Shown here: one piece after another, positions 39,858 to 46,516 of the stretch | How the letters are laid out: every line of letters begins with the position of its first letter | Position numbering within the stretch: position 1 is the stretch's first letter | NCBI RefSeq assembly: GCF_009725985.1 | Contig: NZ_RCNR01000003.1 | Location: forward strand, 1 to 64,000 | DNA from: Zobellia amurskyensis | GTDB lineage: Bacteria; Bacteroidota; Bacteroidia; Flavobacteriales; Flavobacteriaceae | Length of the DNA: 64,000 bases | Direction of reading: 5' to 3' | Notes under the pieces: model-generated | Told to the model about the DNA's origin: nothing | What the model saw: the letters and a program-made list of their open reading frames with translations, nothing else | Databases searched by the model: none | Translations under genes and position numbers: made by a program

Positions 39858-41177
39858 ATGATTGAAAAAATCATTCTTACCCCCTTCCAGAAATTTGTAA
39901 AAATTGAAAGTTTTAGTGGCATCCTCTTGTTTGGGGCAATGGTGATTGCAATGATTTGGGCGAATTCCCCTTTTAGTGAATCGTACCAAGCTTTATGGCA
40001 ATTCAACATCGGTATACGTACAGAAACGTTTGAGTTTACAAAACCACTTATCCTTTGGATTAATGATGGATTAATGGCTATTTTTTTCTTTTTAATTGGG
40101 TTAGAAATTAAAAGAGAACTATTAATTGGCGAATTGAATTCGTTACGAAAGGCAACGTTACCTCTGTTTGCAGCAATTGGCGGAATGGTATTTCCTTTGT
40201 GTCTATTCTTGTTATTGAATAATTCTCCTGAAACAAGCAGCGGGTGGGGAATTCCTATGGCGACCGATATAGCTTTTACCTTGGCAATTTTAAAAATTCT
40301 AGGAAACAGGGTGCCGCTTTCGCTTAAAATATTTCTAACAGCATTTGCCATTGTAGATGATTTAGGTGCGGTTCTTATAATAGCAATCTTTTATAGTACA
40401 GGGATTGATTGGTGGTTGATTCTATATGCCATGCTTCCCTTGGCGTTTTTATTTTATTTGTCATATAGAGGTATTTATCACAAGTATCTTTCATTTTTCA
40501 TAGGTGTTGTAGTCTGGTTTCTTTTTCTTGGTTCAGGAATTCACCCAACCATTGCAGGAGTACTTATGGCTTTTACCATACCCATAAGACAAAAGATAGA
40601 CATGGAAAGCTTTACGGGAAATTTACAAGATATTGCCTATCGTTTTACACAAACAAAACGAGACGGTCTGCCCATTTTGTCTAAAGAACAGTATGAACAT
40701 ATGGATGAATTGGAAGATCTGACTGAAAAATTTAATTCGCCATTGCAGCGTCTCGAACACGGATTACATGGTTGGGTGGCTTATTTTATCATGCCCATTT
40801 TTGCCATCTCTAATGCTGGAGTGATTTTTAGCGGAGATATGGCGTTAGACATGCCTTTGGTTATAAATATTGCCGTAGCCTTATTTATTGGTAAAGGAAT
40901 TGGTATTACTCTGATGTCATTTCTCAGTGTAAAGTTGAAGATAGCCGCACTACCAGAAGGTATTAATTTTATGCAAATTATTGGTGTTGCCATCTTGGCG
41001 GGTGTAGGGTTTACAATGTCTATTTTTGTGGCCAATTTAGCATTTACAGATAATTCAGTCTTTGTAGATTCCTCTAAAGTGGGAATATTAGTAGGGTCAG
41101 TAGTTTCTGGAATTATTGGATATATTATTATAAAATCGAGTGGAAATCCAAAGAAGGTTCCAATTCAAAAAAGCTAG
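39858..41177 (+). CDS. nhaA: Na+/H+ antiporter NhaA
   Basis: The 439-residue protein has the NhaA pattern: IWANSPFSESYQALW, NDGLMAIFFFLIGLEIKRELLIGEL, GWGIPMATDIAFTLAIL, the ion-binding Asp pair in FAIVDDLGAVLIIAIFY (about residues 163-164), and GVGFTMSIFVANLAF near the C-terminus. There are 11-12 predicted helices. NhaA exports Na+ or Li+ in exchange for protons, which fits a marine origin. A decayed second nhaA copy lies at 47.1-47.6 kb. No nhaR is next to it. Confidence 0.95.
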   Translation: MIEKIILTPFQKFVKIESFSGILLFGAMVIAMIWANSPFSESYQALWQFNIGIRTETFEFTKPLILWINDGLMAIFFFLIGLEIKRELLIGELNSLRKATLPLFAAIGGMVFPLCLFLLLNNSPETSSGWGIPMATDIAFTLAILKILGNRVPLSLKIFLTAFAIVDDLGAVLIIAIFYSTGIDWWLILYAMLPLAFLFYLSYRGIYHKYLSFFIGVVVWFLFLGSGIHPTIAGVLMAFTIPIRQKIDMESFTGNLQDIAYRFTQTKRDGLPILSKEQYEHMDELEDLTEKFNSPLQRLEHGLHGWVAYFIMPIFAISNAGVIFSGDMALDMPLVINIAVALFIGKGIGITLMSFLSVKLKIAALPEGINFMQIIGVAILAGVGFTMSIFVANLAFTDNSVFVDSSKVGILVGSVVSGIIGYIIIKSSGNPKKVPIQKS

Positions 41178-42171: not shown

Positions 42172-42231
42172 TTTACGGTTTGTTAGATTGCCATGTGCAG
42201 ATACTTGCCAATAAAATTGATTTTACTCATA

Positions 42232-44118
42232 ATGCAACACTATAAGGATTTATCGAAAGAAACTGTTGACCGTATCTTGGTAGATTTGCGGAAAGATGAA
42301 GATGAATATAACTTTAAACTTCCAAATGGAGGTTTTTTGCATATTGAAAGTGGACTGCCGTATTTGACCATTTATAGAATGGCAAATAAAGATAGCGGAA
42401 CCAGGGAGTTGCTGCTCAATGAAGCGTCTTACCTGATTATTGGAAGAGGAAATTTTAACACGTATCAGTATTTACTTTTTGAAATAGCCAATTACTTTTC
42501 AGCCCAGTATAAATCTTATTTGCTATTTGAAATTTATGCAGGAAAACCGAATAGTACATGTTTTCGGATCAAAGGGCCTGCCGACTTACTTCCAAAAACT
42601 TTAAAAGTCCTTGATAAGGGTTTAAAAGAAGTCAATACCATATCTCCGGGTGTAGCAATTGCATCTAAAATTGAAGATACCGCTGATCGACATCCTGAAG
42701 GGTCTCGTCATCTGTTAACGATTGAGGAAACCAAACAATGTGGGGCATTGTTGGTAGGACTTGAAATTCCGCCAGTTTATAGAAGTGAACGCAGAAAACT
42801 CTTTCCCGTCTTTTTCAGGAATTTTCATAGTTCGGTTACAACAGCAATGAAAAAGGCAATTTTTAGTTTTATCCGCATACAGACGGCATGTGGTATATCT
42901 AGCTATAATTTGCTAGGCCAAAGGTCGCTAAAGGAAAAAGTCTTTGAAATTGACAAAAAATTAGCTGAGATTGAACGTACATATCAATTTCTTTGGTTGG
43001 TTTCGCCCTCCAATATTTACAATATAAAGGAAACTTTTTTTGAAAGTCGGTTTAAAACTGTACTTGACTATCATTATAGATTATTGCCAATAGATCCCGA
43101 TGTCTTAAAAAGAAAGCTTTACGATTTAAAGATTGAAAAGATAGAAGACCCGGTCTTGTCGCATATTTTTCGTCAAAAGCGAGAAGAACTAGACCGGCAG
43201 ATAACAATGCTGAATGTCAGAGGCACTGCGAACTTCTTTTATAACAGTATACGACTGCATCAGGGGATTGGAAGAAAACTTCTAAGCGAGGCAGAAAATA
43301 TACTTACCCAGCTAACCGAGAAGCAGGGCGATAAAAAAAACCTGAACCTTATGGATGCCAATGAATTTGCCGCTTTGGTGAAGGATGAAATAGATTTTCT
43401 CAAGAAACAACATCCCGGCTTTTCATGTGAAGTTTATATCCGCGAAGACGTAAATATAATGATGGTCTCCAATGGAAACCTTTATTTGCCGGCGGATTAT
43501 ACGGTTGGCCCAAAGGAAGCGGAGGCTTTGATACAACATGAAATCGGTACACATGCGCTTACCTATTTTAACGGTAAGGAACAACCTTTTGAACAGTTTA
43601 GTATGGGGTTGGCAGATTATGACCCACTGCAGGAAGGGTTGGCCGTGCTTTCTGAGTATTTGGTAGGCGGTCTTACGAGAAATAGACTACGAACCCTTGC
43701 AGGTAGGGTGGTAGCGGGCCAAGCAAGATTAGACGGTCATGACTTCAGAGCAATTTTTGACCTGCTACTCACAAAGTTCAACTTTACAGAAAAAAGGTCT
43801 TTCAACATTGTTTCTAGAACCATGCAAGGCGGAGGATTCCTGAAGGACATTATTTATCTAAAAGGATTTTTAAAGCTGATAGAATACCTCAAAGGTGGTG
43901 GTTCATTGGAACCTTTACTTTCCGGTAAATTTGGTTTTCATCACATTAAAATAGTACAACAACTGACCGAACGAAATATTTTAAAACCACCCATTCTAAG
44001 ACCCAGTTATTTAAGTAATACCGAATTTGAAAATAAAATAAAGAAAATAAAAGAAGGATTACCAATTGTTGAGATGGTATGCGATGGTAACCTTGAACAA
44101 TCTTTAAAAATGAACTAA
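42232..44118 (+). CDS. DUF1704 (MATCAP-like) metallopeptidase, 'flavohemoglobin expression-modulating QEST motif' family
   Basis: I choose ATG 42232; an in-frame ATG at 42193 is possible. The 628-residue protein matches DUF1704: an N-terminal domain with LLVGLEIPPVYR and VFFRNFHSSVTTAMKKAIFSF, then the metalloprotease core QHEIGTHALTYFNGKEQPF (zinc-type HExxxH at about residue 435), DPLQEGLAVLSEYLVGGL and ARLDGHDFRAIFDLLL. The related eukaryotic MATCAP cleaves the C-terminal Tyr from tubulin, so a carboxypeptidase-type activity is the best structural guess. Its stop overlaps the ATP-grasp start by one base (TAATG), showing tight coupling. Confidence 0.85.
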   Translation: MQHYKDLSKETVDRILVDLRKDEDEYNFKLPNGGFLHIESGLPYLTIYRMANKDSGTRELLLNEASYLIIGRGNFNTYQYLLFEIANYFSAQYKSYLLFEIYAGKPNSTCFRIKGPADLLPKTLKVLDKGLKEVNTISPGVAIASKIEDTADRHPEGSRHLLTIEETKQCGALLVGLEIPPVYRSERRKLFPVFFRNFHSSVTTAMKKAIFSFIRIQTACGISSYNLLGQRSLKEKVFEIDKKLAEIERTYQFLWLVSPSNIYNIKETFFESRFKTVLDYHYRLLPIDPDVLKRKLYDLKIEKIEDPVLSHIFRQKREELDRQITMLNVRGTANFFYNSIRLHQGIGRKLLSEAENILTQLTEKQGDKKNLNLMDANEFAALVKDEIDFLKKQHPGFSCEVYIREDVNIMMVSNGNLYLPADYTVGPKEAEALIQHEIGTHALTYFNGKEQPFEQFSMGLADYDPLQEGLAVLSEYLVGGLTRNRLRTLAGRVVAGQARLDGHDFRAIFDLLLTKFNFTEKRSFNIVSRTMQGGGFLKDIIYLKGFLKLIEYLKGGGSLEPLLSGKFGFHHIKIVQQLTERNILKPPILRPSYLSNTEFENKIKKIKEGLPIVEMVCDGNLEQSLKMN

Positions 44119-45167
44119 TGAAAATAGGATTTGTATTGAATAAAGTAGCCACCGAAGCTTGTGGTACTTCTGTAGCTTTAATGACTAAAGCACATAAAAT
44201 GGGCCACGAAGTAAGTGCCATAGGTGTAGGGGATTTTAATCTGCATCATGATGGGCTTATTACAATAGACACTACGTCGGTTCCCGTGAACAAGGAGGTG
44301 AAAACCCCAGAAGAATATCTAGAACATTTACAAGGTTCAGAAGCTGAAACGAAACGGATAGAAGCCATTTCTCTGGATGTGCTGTTTATACGGAACAACC
44401 CCACCGAAGAAGGGGCGGACCGGAAATGGGCCGAACAATCAGGAATCGCTTTTGGTCGTATGATCCAGCAATTGGGCGTATTGGTGCTCAATGATGCCTA
44501 TGCGTTGACAAAAGCATTTATAGACAAGCTGTATTTTGAAGAGCTGCCAAAGCATATAAAACCTGCATCTATCATCACACGTAAAAAAGAGGACGTTTTG
44601 AATTTTTGGGAGGAAAACGGTAAGAAAATGGTGCTAAAACCTTTGGAAGGTTCCGGGGGGCAGAATGTATATCTCATAGATGAGAATCAAAAAAACCTGA
44701 ATCAGATTATAGATACGTTATCTGATGAAGGATACATTATAGCGCAAGAATATCTTCCTGATGTTAAGGATGGTGATATCCGCGTTATACTTATGAACGG
44801 GCGTGTCCTAGAGCAAGATGGGCAAAAAGCTATCATTAGAAGAGTTAGTGGCGAAGGTGAATTCCGGAGTAATTTTTCGCTTGGGGCAACGGCGAACAGT
44901 AGCGAATTGACCACGGCTATGGAACACATTATTGAAGTTACGGCACCCCGTTTAATTGCTGATGGATTCTTTTTTGTAGGGCTGGATATCGTAAAGGACA
45001 AGTTGATAGAAATAAATGTTCTGAGTCCCGGTGGGCTTGACCATTTTAGTGAAATTGACCTTCCTGATTTTACAGATACCGTGATTGAGGCCATTGAAAG
45101 AAAATTGGAGTATAAGAAAATGCATGGCAACCAGTTGTCCAACAAAGTTTTGGCAACCATGCACTAA
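44118..45167 (+). CDS. ATP-grasp ligase of the glutathione synthetase (GshB) type
   Basis: The 349-residue protein has the prokaryotic GSH-synthetase layout: N-terminal substrate domain (LFIRNNPTEEGADRKWAEQSG), the ATP-binding lobe MVLKPLEGSGGQNVYLI (about residues 172-188), IIAQEYLPDVKDGDIRVILMNG and the metal site FVGLDIVKDKLIEINVLSPGGL (about 287-308, acid and Asn). GshB joins gamma-Glu-Cys to Gly, but no gshA is nearby, and the conserved partners are a peptidase and an amidohydrolase. A related peptide or amide bond with another acceptor is therefore as likely. Coupled to DUF1704 by a one-base overlap and 9 bp from the next gene. Confidence 0.85.
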   Translation: MKIGFVLNKVATEACGTSVALMTKAHKMGHEVSAIGVGDFNLHHDGLITIDTTSVPVNKEVKTPEEYLEHLQGSEAETKRIEAISLDVLFIRNNPTEEGADRKWAEQSGIAFGRMIQQLGVLVLNDAYALTKAFIDKLYFEELPKHIKPASIITRKKEDVLNFWEENGKKMVLKPLEGSGGQNVYLIDENQKNLNQIIDTLSDEGYIIAQEYLPDVKDGDIRVILMNGRVLEQDGQKAIIRRVSGEGEFRSNFSLGATANSSELTTAMEHIIEVTAPRLIADGFFFVGLDIVKDKLIEINVLSPGGLDHFSEIDLPDFTDTVIEAIERKLEYKKMHGNQLSNKVLATMH

Positions 45168-45176
45168 AGTAAGTTT

Positions 45177-46073
45177 ATGAAAGAATTATCGAGAATTATA
45201 GGAGAATATAGCTCAGGAGTTCCGGGGCCTTTATTGTTTGTCACGGCTGGCATTCATGGTAATGAGCCCAGTGGGGTCATTGCTCTAAAAAAGGTATTTG
45301 AAGAACTACAGCGGACCCGGCCAGAGGTTAAAGGAACCTTGGTAGGGGTCTCGGGAAACAAAAAAGCTCTTGAACAAAACGTACGTTTTATTGATGAAGA
45401 TTTGAATAGAACGTGGAGTCCAGAAAATATTGAAAACAACATTAATACCTCGCATGAGCATAGCGAAATGTATGAGATTATTGAGGTGCTGAACCAATAT
45501 CGTAGTCAAGATTTTGAGAAATGCTATTTTTTAGATTGTCATACCACATCTTCCGAGAGTCTGCCGTATGTGTCCGTACAAGATGTAAATGACAATAACG
45601 AGTGGGCACATCGTTTTCCGACGTATATAATTAAAGGGTTTAGTGATTTAATTCATGGTGATATTGACCATTTTTTAAGCCGAACAGGTTTGACTGGTTT
45701 TGTTTTTGAAGCAGGCCAGCATCGACATGAGACCGCAGTTGAAAACCAGGAAGGTATCATCTGGCTAGCATTGCATGAAGCTTTAGGGGTGGATTTGACG
45801 TTATTGTCTGGTTATCCGCAATGCGTAGAGAACTTTTCAAAAAAGAACGCTCCGGACCAAAAAACATTTGAAATTACCTATCGTCATGGGTTGAAGGATT
45901 CGGACGAGTTTGAAATGGTAGCAGGATTCGAGAATTTTTCTCCAATTAAAAAAGGACAACTGCTAGCTGTTCAAAACGGACAAGAAATAAGGAGCGAGCA
46001 TAACGGTTATATTTTTATGCCCCTCTACCAATCTAAGGGAGATGATGGTTTTTTTATTGTAGAAGAGGTGTAA
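45177..46073 (+). CDS. AstE/AspA-family zinc amidohydrolase (succinylglutamate desuccinylase/aspartoacylase-like)
   Basis: The 298-residue protein has the M14-like AstE fold: zinc ligands in TAGIHGNEPSG (His and Glu, about residues 23-31), a substrate Arg/Asn pair in DEDLNRTW, a third ligand in FLDCHTTSSESLPY, and the catalytic Glu in VFEAGQH. A C-terminal beta domain (about 235-298) follows, as in aspartoacylase. Members remove acyl groups from amino acids. No arginine-degradation genes surround it, so the product of the neighbouring ATP-grasp enzyme is a plausible substrate. Last gene of the three-gene operon, ending at a terminator. Confidence 0.86.
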   Translation: MKELSRIIGEYSSGVPGPLLFVTAGIHGNEPSGVIALKKVFEELQRTRPEVKGTLVGVSGNKKALEQNVRFIDEDLNRTWSPENIENNINTSHEHSEMYEIIEVLNQYRSQDFEKCYFLDCHTTSSESLPYVSVQDVNDNNEWAHRFPTYIIKGFSDLIHGDIDHFLSRTGLTGFVFEAGQHRHETAVENQEGIIWLALHEALGVDLTLLSGYPQCVENFSKKNAPDQKTFEITYRHGLKDSDEFEMVAGFENFSPIKKGQLLAVQNGQEIRSEHNGYIFMPLYQSKGDDGFFIVEEV

Positions 46074-46102
46074 TTGCACAATAGGCTATCCACTGCATCA
46101 GA

Positions 46103-46139
46103 AACATTCTTTGGTTAAGGGTTCTTACCAAAGAATGTT
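46103..46139. terminator. Bidirectional terminator ending the DUF1704 operon
   Basis: AACATTCTTTGGT (46103-46115) and ACCAAAGAATGTT (46127-46139) pair over 13 bp, followed by TTTG-TT on the plus strand. The right arm lies inside the last codons of the converging DCC-family gene, so the element overlaps coding sequence. Confidence 0.8.
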
Positions 46140-46516
46140 TTTGTTAACTTAAAAAGAACCGGTCTGTAATGGGCAATAAACTTGTAGGAGGCGTCACTAA
46201 TTGCTTTAAATAGAGCTGATTTTTCATACCACGAAATTAAAAAGGACCAACGTGATGAATAATATAAAGTTCTATAGGCGGCATGTGCACCACTATATAT
46301 TTTGCCATTGGTTTCTATCATGCGAACGGCTTGTTTGAATGCCTGTTCTGGAATTTCGTCAATCTGCTCTTGAATATCTTGGTAGGGAATATATTGAACC
46401 TTGTCAGAGGTAATTTTCTGCCATCGCGTGACCCAATATTTGCAAAAACCACATTTTCCGTCCCAAATTAAAAGGGGCAGTTTGGGTACGTAACTAGAAT
46501 GTGTGGGCATTTGCAT
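46115..46516 (-). CDS. DCC-family (DUF393) thiol-disulfide oxidoreductase-like protein
   Basis: The 133-residue protein has the family signature LLIWDGKCGFCKYWVTRW (DGxCGFC, residues 18-26 region), followed by YIPYQDIQEQIDEIPEQAFKQAVRMIETNGKIYSGAHAAYRTLY and a basic C-terminal helix. The CxxC suggests thiol redox chemistry but no substrate is known for the family. It is convergent with the AstE gene and shares its terminator. Confidence 0.87.
   Translation of the reverse strand: MQMPTHSSYVPKLPLLIWDGKCGFCKYWVTRWQKITSDKVQYIPYQDIQEQIDEIPEQAFKQAVRMIETNGKIYSGAHAAYRTLYYSSRWSFLISWYEKSALFKAISDASYKFIAHYRPVLFKLTKTFFGKNP

Follow-up and report, generated by a model that had tools for sequence, protein, structure and literature searches.

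A three-gene unit at positions 42232-46073 of a 64,000-nucleotide stretch of Zobellia amurskyensis DNA (contig NZ_RCNR01000003.1, positions 1 to 64,000; the entire stretch is termed the window) encodes a DUF1704/MATCAP-type metallopeptidase, an ATP-grasp ligase of the GshB/RimK type and an AstE/aspartoacylase-type zinc hydrolase. The trio is a real unit whose members are grouped far beyond chance, and it is proposed with moderate confidence that the three enzymes constitute a make-and-remove module for a small acidic, probably N-acylated, peptide. The elements of the locus, in which FGase denotes N-formylglutamate amidohydrolase and aa denotes amino acids, are as follows.

42232..44118, + strand: gene 1, long-form DUF1704/MATCAP ('QEGLA') metallopeptidase of 628 aa with a degenerate FGase-like domain at the N-terminus
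42232..42906, + strand: N-terminal domain of gene 1 (~residues 1-225), degenerate and FGase-like, without the FGase motifs
43537..43554, + strand: HEIGTH zinc/catalytic motif of gene 1, placed by conserved-residue alignment
44118..45167, + strand: gene 2, GshB/RimK-type ATP-grasp ligase (PRK12458) of 349 aa
45177..46073, + strand: gene 3, AstE/aspartoacylase-type zinc hydrolase of 298 aa
46099..46143 (about), + strand: 3′ hairpin, probably a terminator common to the convergent gene, recognized by its folding z-score

Genes 1 and 2 have one base in common (TAATG), genes 2 and 3 are separated by 9 bp, and all three lie on the same strand. The tight coupling described in an earlier note on this DNA, which was made from the sequence alone, was confirmed by the open reading frames together with Pfam matches, and the assignment of the products to a DUF1704 peptidase, a glutathione synthetase-like ATP-grasp ligase and an AstE-like hydrolase was borne out by Pfam and NCBIfam. 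A longer version of gene 1 could start at 42193, and the closest homologues align from 42232.

The grouping of the three families was assessed in 397 Flavobacteriaceae genomes, a single sample obtained alike for the DUF1704, ligase and AstE searches. Ligases were accepted at E ≤ 1e-60 and AstE orthologues at E < 1e-90; the latter cut was chosen because a gap follows that extends up to 9e-68, where paralogues of ~400 aa begin. DUF1704 was found in 190 genomes, the ligase in 177 and the AstE orthologue in 34. DUF1704 and the ligase occurred together in 177 genomes, DUF1704 alone in 13, the ligase alone in none and neither in 207, an association with a Fisher P value of 3.5e-98 that ignores shared ancestry. 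Every AstE-positive genome (34/34) also possessed DUF1704 and the ligase. All 34 neighborhoods were read, including those of the window and locus L026, and the order DUF1704-ligase-AstE on one strand was observed in 34/34 loci from 24 genera. Co-occurrence outside this genome, on which the earlier note had made its proposal depend, is strong across genera of one family and extends to other phyla. A fourth partner, which that note had considered, was not found to be conserved in the flanks of these 34 loci: the trio families were present in 24/24 genera and the next commonest flanking family in only 5/24. In two loci of one genus (L200 and L201) a pair of ligase genes stands in tandem between DUF1704 and AstE, which hints that a second donor or acceptor is used, and the AstE gene of L183 is broken or shortened in the assembly. 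A separate set of 25 genomes was hand-picked, mostly for weak Pfam scores, and its value of 22/25 does not represent a rate; the figures free of this bias are those of the 397-genome sample.

Gene 1 matched Pfam MATCAP (PF08014) over residues 267-601 with an E-value of 2.1e-77 (261 bits against a gathering threshold of 27) and scored 286.9 bits with the QEGLA family TIGR02421, below the NCBIfam cut-off of 338.65. The residues of the HExxxH...E metal site (His-436, Glu-437, His-441 and Glu-468) were invariant in 27/27 aligned long-form proteins, that of the window included, and the HEIGTH...QEG motif is conserved. AlphaFold2 models of the protein were confident (pLDDT 89.9 for the whole chain and 88.2 for the N-terminal domain alone), and the part beyond the N-terminal domain was superimposed on human MATCAP (7z6s) with a Z-score of 24.7 and a root-mean-square deviation (rmsd) of 3.0 over 291 aligned residues that were 19% identical.

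The long form of DUF1704 is distinguished by an N-terminal extension of ~225 residues. A profile built from 26 of these extensions aligned with an FGase profile in hhalign over 200 columns (probability 95.9, E 5e-9). When the N-terminal domain was subjected alone to a second-look structural alignment, the best match was NFGAH 2q7s (Z 12.6, rmsd 2.9, 169 aligned residues), nearly tied with M14 carboxypeptidases (Z 12.0, a difference within 1). Foldseek by itself gave weaker, mixed matches in which other zinc hydrolases and phosphorylases ranked first and 2q7s fell outside the first 50. Gene 1 was unmatched by the Pfam FGase family (PF05013). As an FGase profile searched against PDB sequences recovered no credible relative (best E 0.69), the connection of the domain with FGase rests on the hhalign and structural matches. 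In live FGases the HxG, EE and DxNR motifs were present in 13/13 proteins and DxH in 12/13. In the N-terminal domains, the HxG stretch was a gap in the hhalign alignment, DLNR occurred in 0/26 and a histidine at the DxH position in 1/26. Gene 1 therefore looks like an old FGase-peptidase fusion, FGase-like in profile and fold but missing the motifs, in which the FGase part has lost its metal site and is presumably catalytically dead. The peptidase was correctly placed in DUF1704 at the outset, but this decayed domain was overlooked.

Gene 3 belongs to the AstE_AspA_cat family (PF24827; E 1.6e-17, 64.1 bits against a cut-off of 25) and reached no NCBIfam family, remaining below the equivalogs for AstE (55.8 vs. 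305.65) and aspartoacylase (58 vs. 180). A role in arginine catabolism was rejected as the protein falls far under the AstE equivalog cut-off. The residues His-27, Glu-30, Asn-77, Arg-78, His-122 and Glu-178, which include the HxxE...H metal-site motif, were invariant in 22/22 aligned orthologues, and the family profile aligned with the succinylglutamate desuccinylase 1yw6 (E 7.5e-12). The proposition that AstE and FGase are alignable orthologues was rejected, as comparison of the two profiles yielded 40 columns at a probability of 1.4. A DxNR motif is common to the FGase (13/13) and AstE (22/22) sets, and a D-x/C-H motif also is found in both. Separately, a second AstE-like family of ~400 aa adjoins a CBS protein that is weakly matched by GCS2 (L190:5638-8758), and an AstE paralogue at L191:3600-6664 lies beside a protein that is 50% identical to this CBS/weak-GCS2 neighbor. 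The ~400-aa paralogues are present in many genomes without the AstE of the trio.

The window locus is one form of a wider assemblage. Among 198 sampled Bacteroidota genomes, 12 possessed DUF1704, and 11 loci besides the window were read. A PRK12458-like ligase was near DUF1704 in 10 of these 11, the exception being L016, and the third member was an FGase-like gene or domain in 9/10 ligase-bearing loci, the tenth being of the window type; FGase was assigned with PF05013 in two tested cases and by alignment in the others. Thus, an AstE-like third enzyme, as first proposed, is present here, but most relatives have FGase in its place, which had been missed. Two sister arrangements were distinguished. 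Type A comprises ligase, FGase and a short DUF1704 protein (~390 aa), and was examined in 80 named sister-type loci that are the best 80 of 573 relatives of a sister-type query, mostly from Flavobacteriaceae. All three genes were in order in 71/80 loci, 8/80 retained DUF1704 with both ligase and FGase missing, and 1/80 was cut at a contig end. Type B comprises FGase, a long DUF1704 protein (~610 aa) and ligase, and was found on two rhizobial plasmids, one from Aminobacter and the other pSymB of Sinorhizobium meliloti 1021, where it was located with tblastn. Loci L020 and L021 are mixed, with a type-A ligase, FGase, long DUF1704 and a second ligase. Sets that contain FGase also occur in Alpha- and Gammaproteobacteria: Photobacterium sp. 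DA100 has a ligase followed by an FGase-DUF1704 fusion, and a Vibrio plasmid has such a fusion without an adjoining ligase (L197). A Pseudoalteromonas plasmid has DUF1704 alone.

The window locus is type B minus FGase and plus a downstream AstE-like gene. A tree was built from 46 DUF1704 proteins, among them 31/34 window-type members, three having been missed by the motif filter. The long form was recovered as one group (38/38, support 1.0) within which the AstE type constituted a single clade (31/31, support 0.867). A single exchange of FGase for AstE therefore explains the window type. A PF05013 search of the Z. amurskyensis genome gave no match. The AstE-type enzyme is a lineage-specific replacement of FGase, and the exchange favors deacylation or a closely related step, as the names of both families refer to N-acylated glutamate or aspartate.

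A sodium:dicarboxylate/GltP-like symporter gene accompanied 75/87 sister-type loci, 74 times on the same strand. Where a sister-type locus has both this gene and the ligase (67 loci), the two were ≤60 bp apart in 38 cases. The best NCBIfam match of the one symporter tested was GltP, under its cut-off. The eight loci that lack ligase and FGase in the stretch read (L071, L074, L083, L089, L091, L092, L093 and L106) keep DUF1704 and the symporter. At L020:12316-13137 and in 14/80 sister-type loci, ligase and FGase are separated by a rhodanese gene of the mercaptopyruvate-sulfurtransferase-like kind. In addition, an unannotated record of Pseudomonas phage Y1 (OQ572403.1, 63521-64540) matches DUF1704 with 26% identity.

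Gene 2 matched the prokaryotic glutathione synthetase families PF02955 (E 2.2e-47) and PF02951 (E 3.3e-7) as well as RimK PF08443 (E 8.9e-17; 61.7 bits against a cut-off of 21), which is also matched by the ligase of an FGase-type relative. The protein passed PRK12458 (NCBIfam NF009110) narrowly, at 411.1 bits with a cut-off of 408, and remained below both GshB equivalogs (PRK05246, 194.3 vs. 272; TIGR01380, 176.7 vs. 299) and below the RimK family TIGR00768 (81.6 vs. 143.4 bits). A type-A relative in L018 passed PRK05246 (293.5 vs. 272). Residues Lys-174, Arg-222, Arg-250, Asn-252, Asp-290, Glu-298 and Asn-300 were invariant in 32/32 aligned ligases. Gene 2 aligned with Escherichia coli GshB over the full length (E 3.3e-31), and one loop reads FRSN in gene 2 and in RimK structures compared to TRGN in E. 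coli GshB. Arg-250 and Asn-252 of this loop are common to 32/32 ligases, whereas the phenylalanine is confined to window-type enzymes (22/32); the resemblance to RimK is suggestive only.

Searches of the whole genome, the assembly of which is 99.96% complete by tool estimate, for gshA of the GCS2 (PF04107) or E. coli (PF04262) type gave no match at E ≤ 0.001; PF08886 was unsearched. The absence of gshA from the vicinity that the earlier note described thus holds genome-wide for these two families, and a standard GshB that works with a distant gshA, the outcome on which that note would have given way, finds no counterpart in them. The bacillithiol pathway gene BshC is present in the same genome. 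As both equivalog cut-offs were failed, neither of the two gshA families searched was detected, BshC is present and the ligase was always accompanied by DUF1704 in the 397 genomes, glutathione is unlikely to be the product of gene 2, and the possibility that the protein is an ordinary glutathione synthetase was rejected on these grounds.

Immediately downstream of the trio, the region 46074-46155 folds at -24.6 kcal/mol with a z-score of -4.24, exceeding 200/200 shuffled sequences, and the hairpin overlaps the 3′ end of a convergent DCC1-like gene (46115-46516). The single terminator proposed at first is supported by this strong fold, but the hairpin at ~46099-46143 was absent from the list produced by a simple terminator scan. 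The sole Rfam match there, a weak one to a microRNA (29 bits against a gathering threshold of 90), was taken as chance. An NhaA Na+/H+ antiporter gene lies a few kilobases from the trio in 5/34 loci (3/24 genera), a proximity that may be due to chance. It is upstream in the window (39858-41177) and downstream in the other four loci (L167:11185-12519, L168:11546-12883, L170:77-1420 and L171:2126-3451), whose products are 38-45% identical to the NhaA of the window.

In the favored scheme, the acceptor of the ATP-grasp ligase would be an acidic amino acid or short peptide, probably N-acylated, to whose carboxylate the enzyme would attach another amino acid, most likely glutamate or aspartate. Removal of the C-terminal residue would fall to the MATCAP-type enzyme, and the AstE-type enzyme, or FGase in relatives, would remove the N-acyl group or split the same kind of amide on aspartate or glutamate. 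The enzymes would act in opposite directions on a single type of amide bond, much as in the RimK and RimB system or the N-acetylaspartylglutamate cycle. That cycle employs a RimK-like (RIMKL) ligase, glutamate carboxypeptidase II and aspartoacylase. The trio resembles it in having one ligase, one C-terminal peptidase and one aspartoacylase-type deacylase, but the family of gene 1 is not that of glutamate carboxypeptidase II. The non-glutathione peptide make-and-remove set envisaged by the earlier note fits the co-occurrence and gshA results.

The foremost alternative is that the ligase adds glutamate or other residues to a specific protein C-terminus, the MATCAP-type enzyme removes them and the AstE-type enzyme trims or recycles the pieces. 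This is rather unlikely, although several points speak for it. MATCAP relatives with solved structures have protein tails as their substrates, and the accessible text of one report describes MATCAP/TMCP as tubulin tail-processing carboxypeptidases that are deglutamylating (PMC10499314). The trio shares with tubulin tyrosination and glutamylation the MATCAP fold and motif of gene 1 and the ligase/eraser logic. In that system, TTL/TTLL enzymes are the ligase side and are countered by MATCAP/TMCP and CCP; the trio differs in being without tubulin and in having a GshB/RimK-like ligase. A bacterial counterpart is provided by RimB, which strips RimK-added glutamates from RpsF, and RimB-RimK hybrids exist, as stated in the portions consulted of PMC11957791 and PMC12239564. 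The FRSN loop that gene 2 has in common with RimK points in the same direction. The rim system, which is tied to environmental adaptation, also pairs an ATP-grasp ligase of the same superfamily with a peptidase. In the trio, however, the ligase is PRK12458 rather than RimK (82 vs. 143 bits), the eraser is a MATCAP-type zinc peptidase instead of a retropepsin, and 34/34 window-type loci encode a further enzyme, a zinc hydrolase. The partners are PF08014 and PF24827 proteins, and a retropepsin-like RimB is encoded only elsewhere in the genome, as a fusion. Since free poly-glutamate also is a RimK product according to the same excerpts (PMC11957791, PMC12239564), likeness to RimK cannot separate a tail from a small peptide. 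No conserved neighbor in the 34 loci could act as a target, FGase and AstE are named for small N-acyl amino acids, and a glutamate/aspartate-type symporter is near the sister type. The small peptide is favored over the protein tail because of the FGase/AstE partners and the symporter near type A.

The same genome encodes an AstE/DoeB-like hydrolase downstream of a RimK-like ligase (L187:7295-9215, G000:C6) and a RimB-RimK fusion protein (L188:4912-6306, G000:C8). Together with the AstE paralogue beside the weak-GCS2 protein, these show that amide ligases recur as neighbors of peptidases or AstE-type hydrolases.

Expression data for relatives come from Photobacterium damselae grown in 1% compared to 3% NaCl, in which the excerpted results of PMC10308900 list a 38.4-fold increase for A0J47_RS17020 'GshB', a 27.5-fold increase for RS17025 (QEGLA), which has the adjacent locus tag, and a 52.2-fold increase for RimK. 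The joint induction with RimK at low salt (PMC10308900) is a further point for the protein tail. From its QEGLA neighbor and from locus L196, we infer that RS17020 is of the PRK12458 type. The relevant passages of PMC10308900 treat such a gene as the glutathione synthetase GshB, linked to a colonization defect, and the consecutive tags VV2_1203 and VV2_1204 of Vibrio vulnificus belong to a COG3930 gene and a 'glutathione synthetase' in the available part of PMC3091676. Judged by these QEGLA and COG3930 neighbors, which were recognized by locus tag in the sections at hand of both sources, the glutathione reading of the Photobacterium and V. vulnificus genes is doubtful. By analogy with relatives in one Photobacterium, it is suggested that the trio may be linked to osmotic or salt state.

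A bolder extension of the protein-tail alternative envisages a reversible 'tail code' at the C-termini of bacterial proteins that is written by the ligase and erased by the MATCAP-type peptidase, with FGase/AstE in a recycling role. The enzymes of tubulin detyrosination and deglutamylation in eukaryotes would then derive from the eraser of such a bacterial set, which would be the more ancient and connected with salt stress. This conjecture is considered improbable, more so than tail modification itself.

Two other explanations are very unlikely. The hydrolases might degrade imported or recycled acylated peptides while the ligase builds what they release into some unrelated peptide of the cell-wall, antibiotic or storage kind, as would suit the persistence of the peptidase without the ligase in some lineages and the symporter near the sister type, but the ligase never occurs without the peptidase among the 397 genomes and no other family lies beside the window type in more than 5/24 genera. 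Similarly, a true GshB-like ligase acting on a γ-Glu-Cys-like precursor from an unrecognized first enzyme would accord with glutathione synthetase as the best family name of gene 2 and the rhodanese gene in 14/80 sister-type loci, but conflicts with the lack of both gshA families searched (PF08886 not among them), the presence of BshC, the failure of gene 2 at both GshB equivalog cut-offs, albeit the L018 relative passes one, and the absence from the sample of any ligase without DUF1704.

Several observations weigh against the proposed small-peptide module. DUF1704 is without the ligase in 13/190 genomes and 8/80 loci, stands alone in L016 and L198, and is part of a ligase-less fusion in L197; this persistence in some lineages weakens the case for a strict three-enzyme cycle. 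All three genes are missing from G182 and G574, two genomes of the same genus, and the unit thus is dispensable. The glutamate/aspartate-type symporter neighbors the sister type and not the window type. The Photobacterium data, in the parts of the report available, concern one strain, one condition and another lineage, and as ligase and peptidase both rise they do not separate making from breaking. Finally, the substrate and activity attributed to the trio are deduced from sequence and would suit either a small peptide or a protein tail.

The idea of a ligase paired with an eraser is already known from RimK and RimB. Part of the trio may already have been foreseen in an amidoligase survey that Iyer and colleagues published in 2009. 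Within the literature searched, which covered few subscription papers, neither the trio nor its FGase sister was described in titles or the beginnings of abstracts. The annotations 'glutathione synthetase' and 'flavohemoglobin expression-modulating QEGLA motif protein' co-occur in Bacteroidota and Proteobacteria, and in one well-sampled family the PRK12458 ligase goes with a MATCAP-type peptidase and a deacylase. If an acidic peptide or tail is indeed written and erased by these enzymes, the module would be a testable bacterial counterpart of the tubulin-tail carboxypeptidases, and would point to a new, possibly salinity-responsive metabolite or protein modification.

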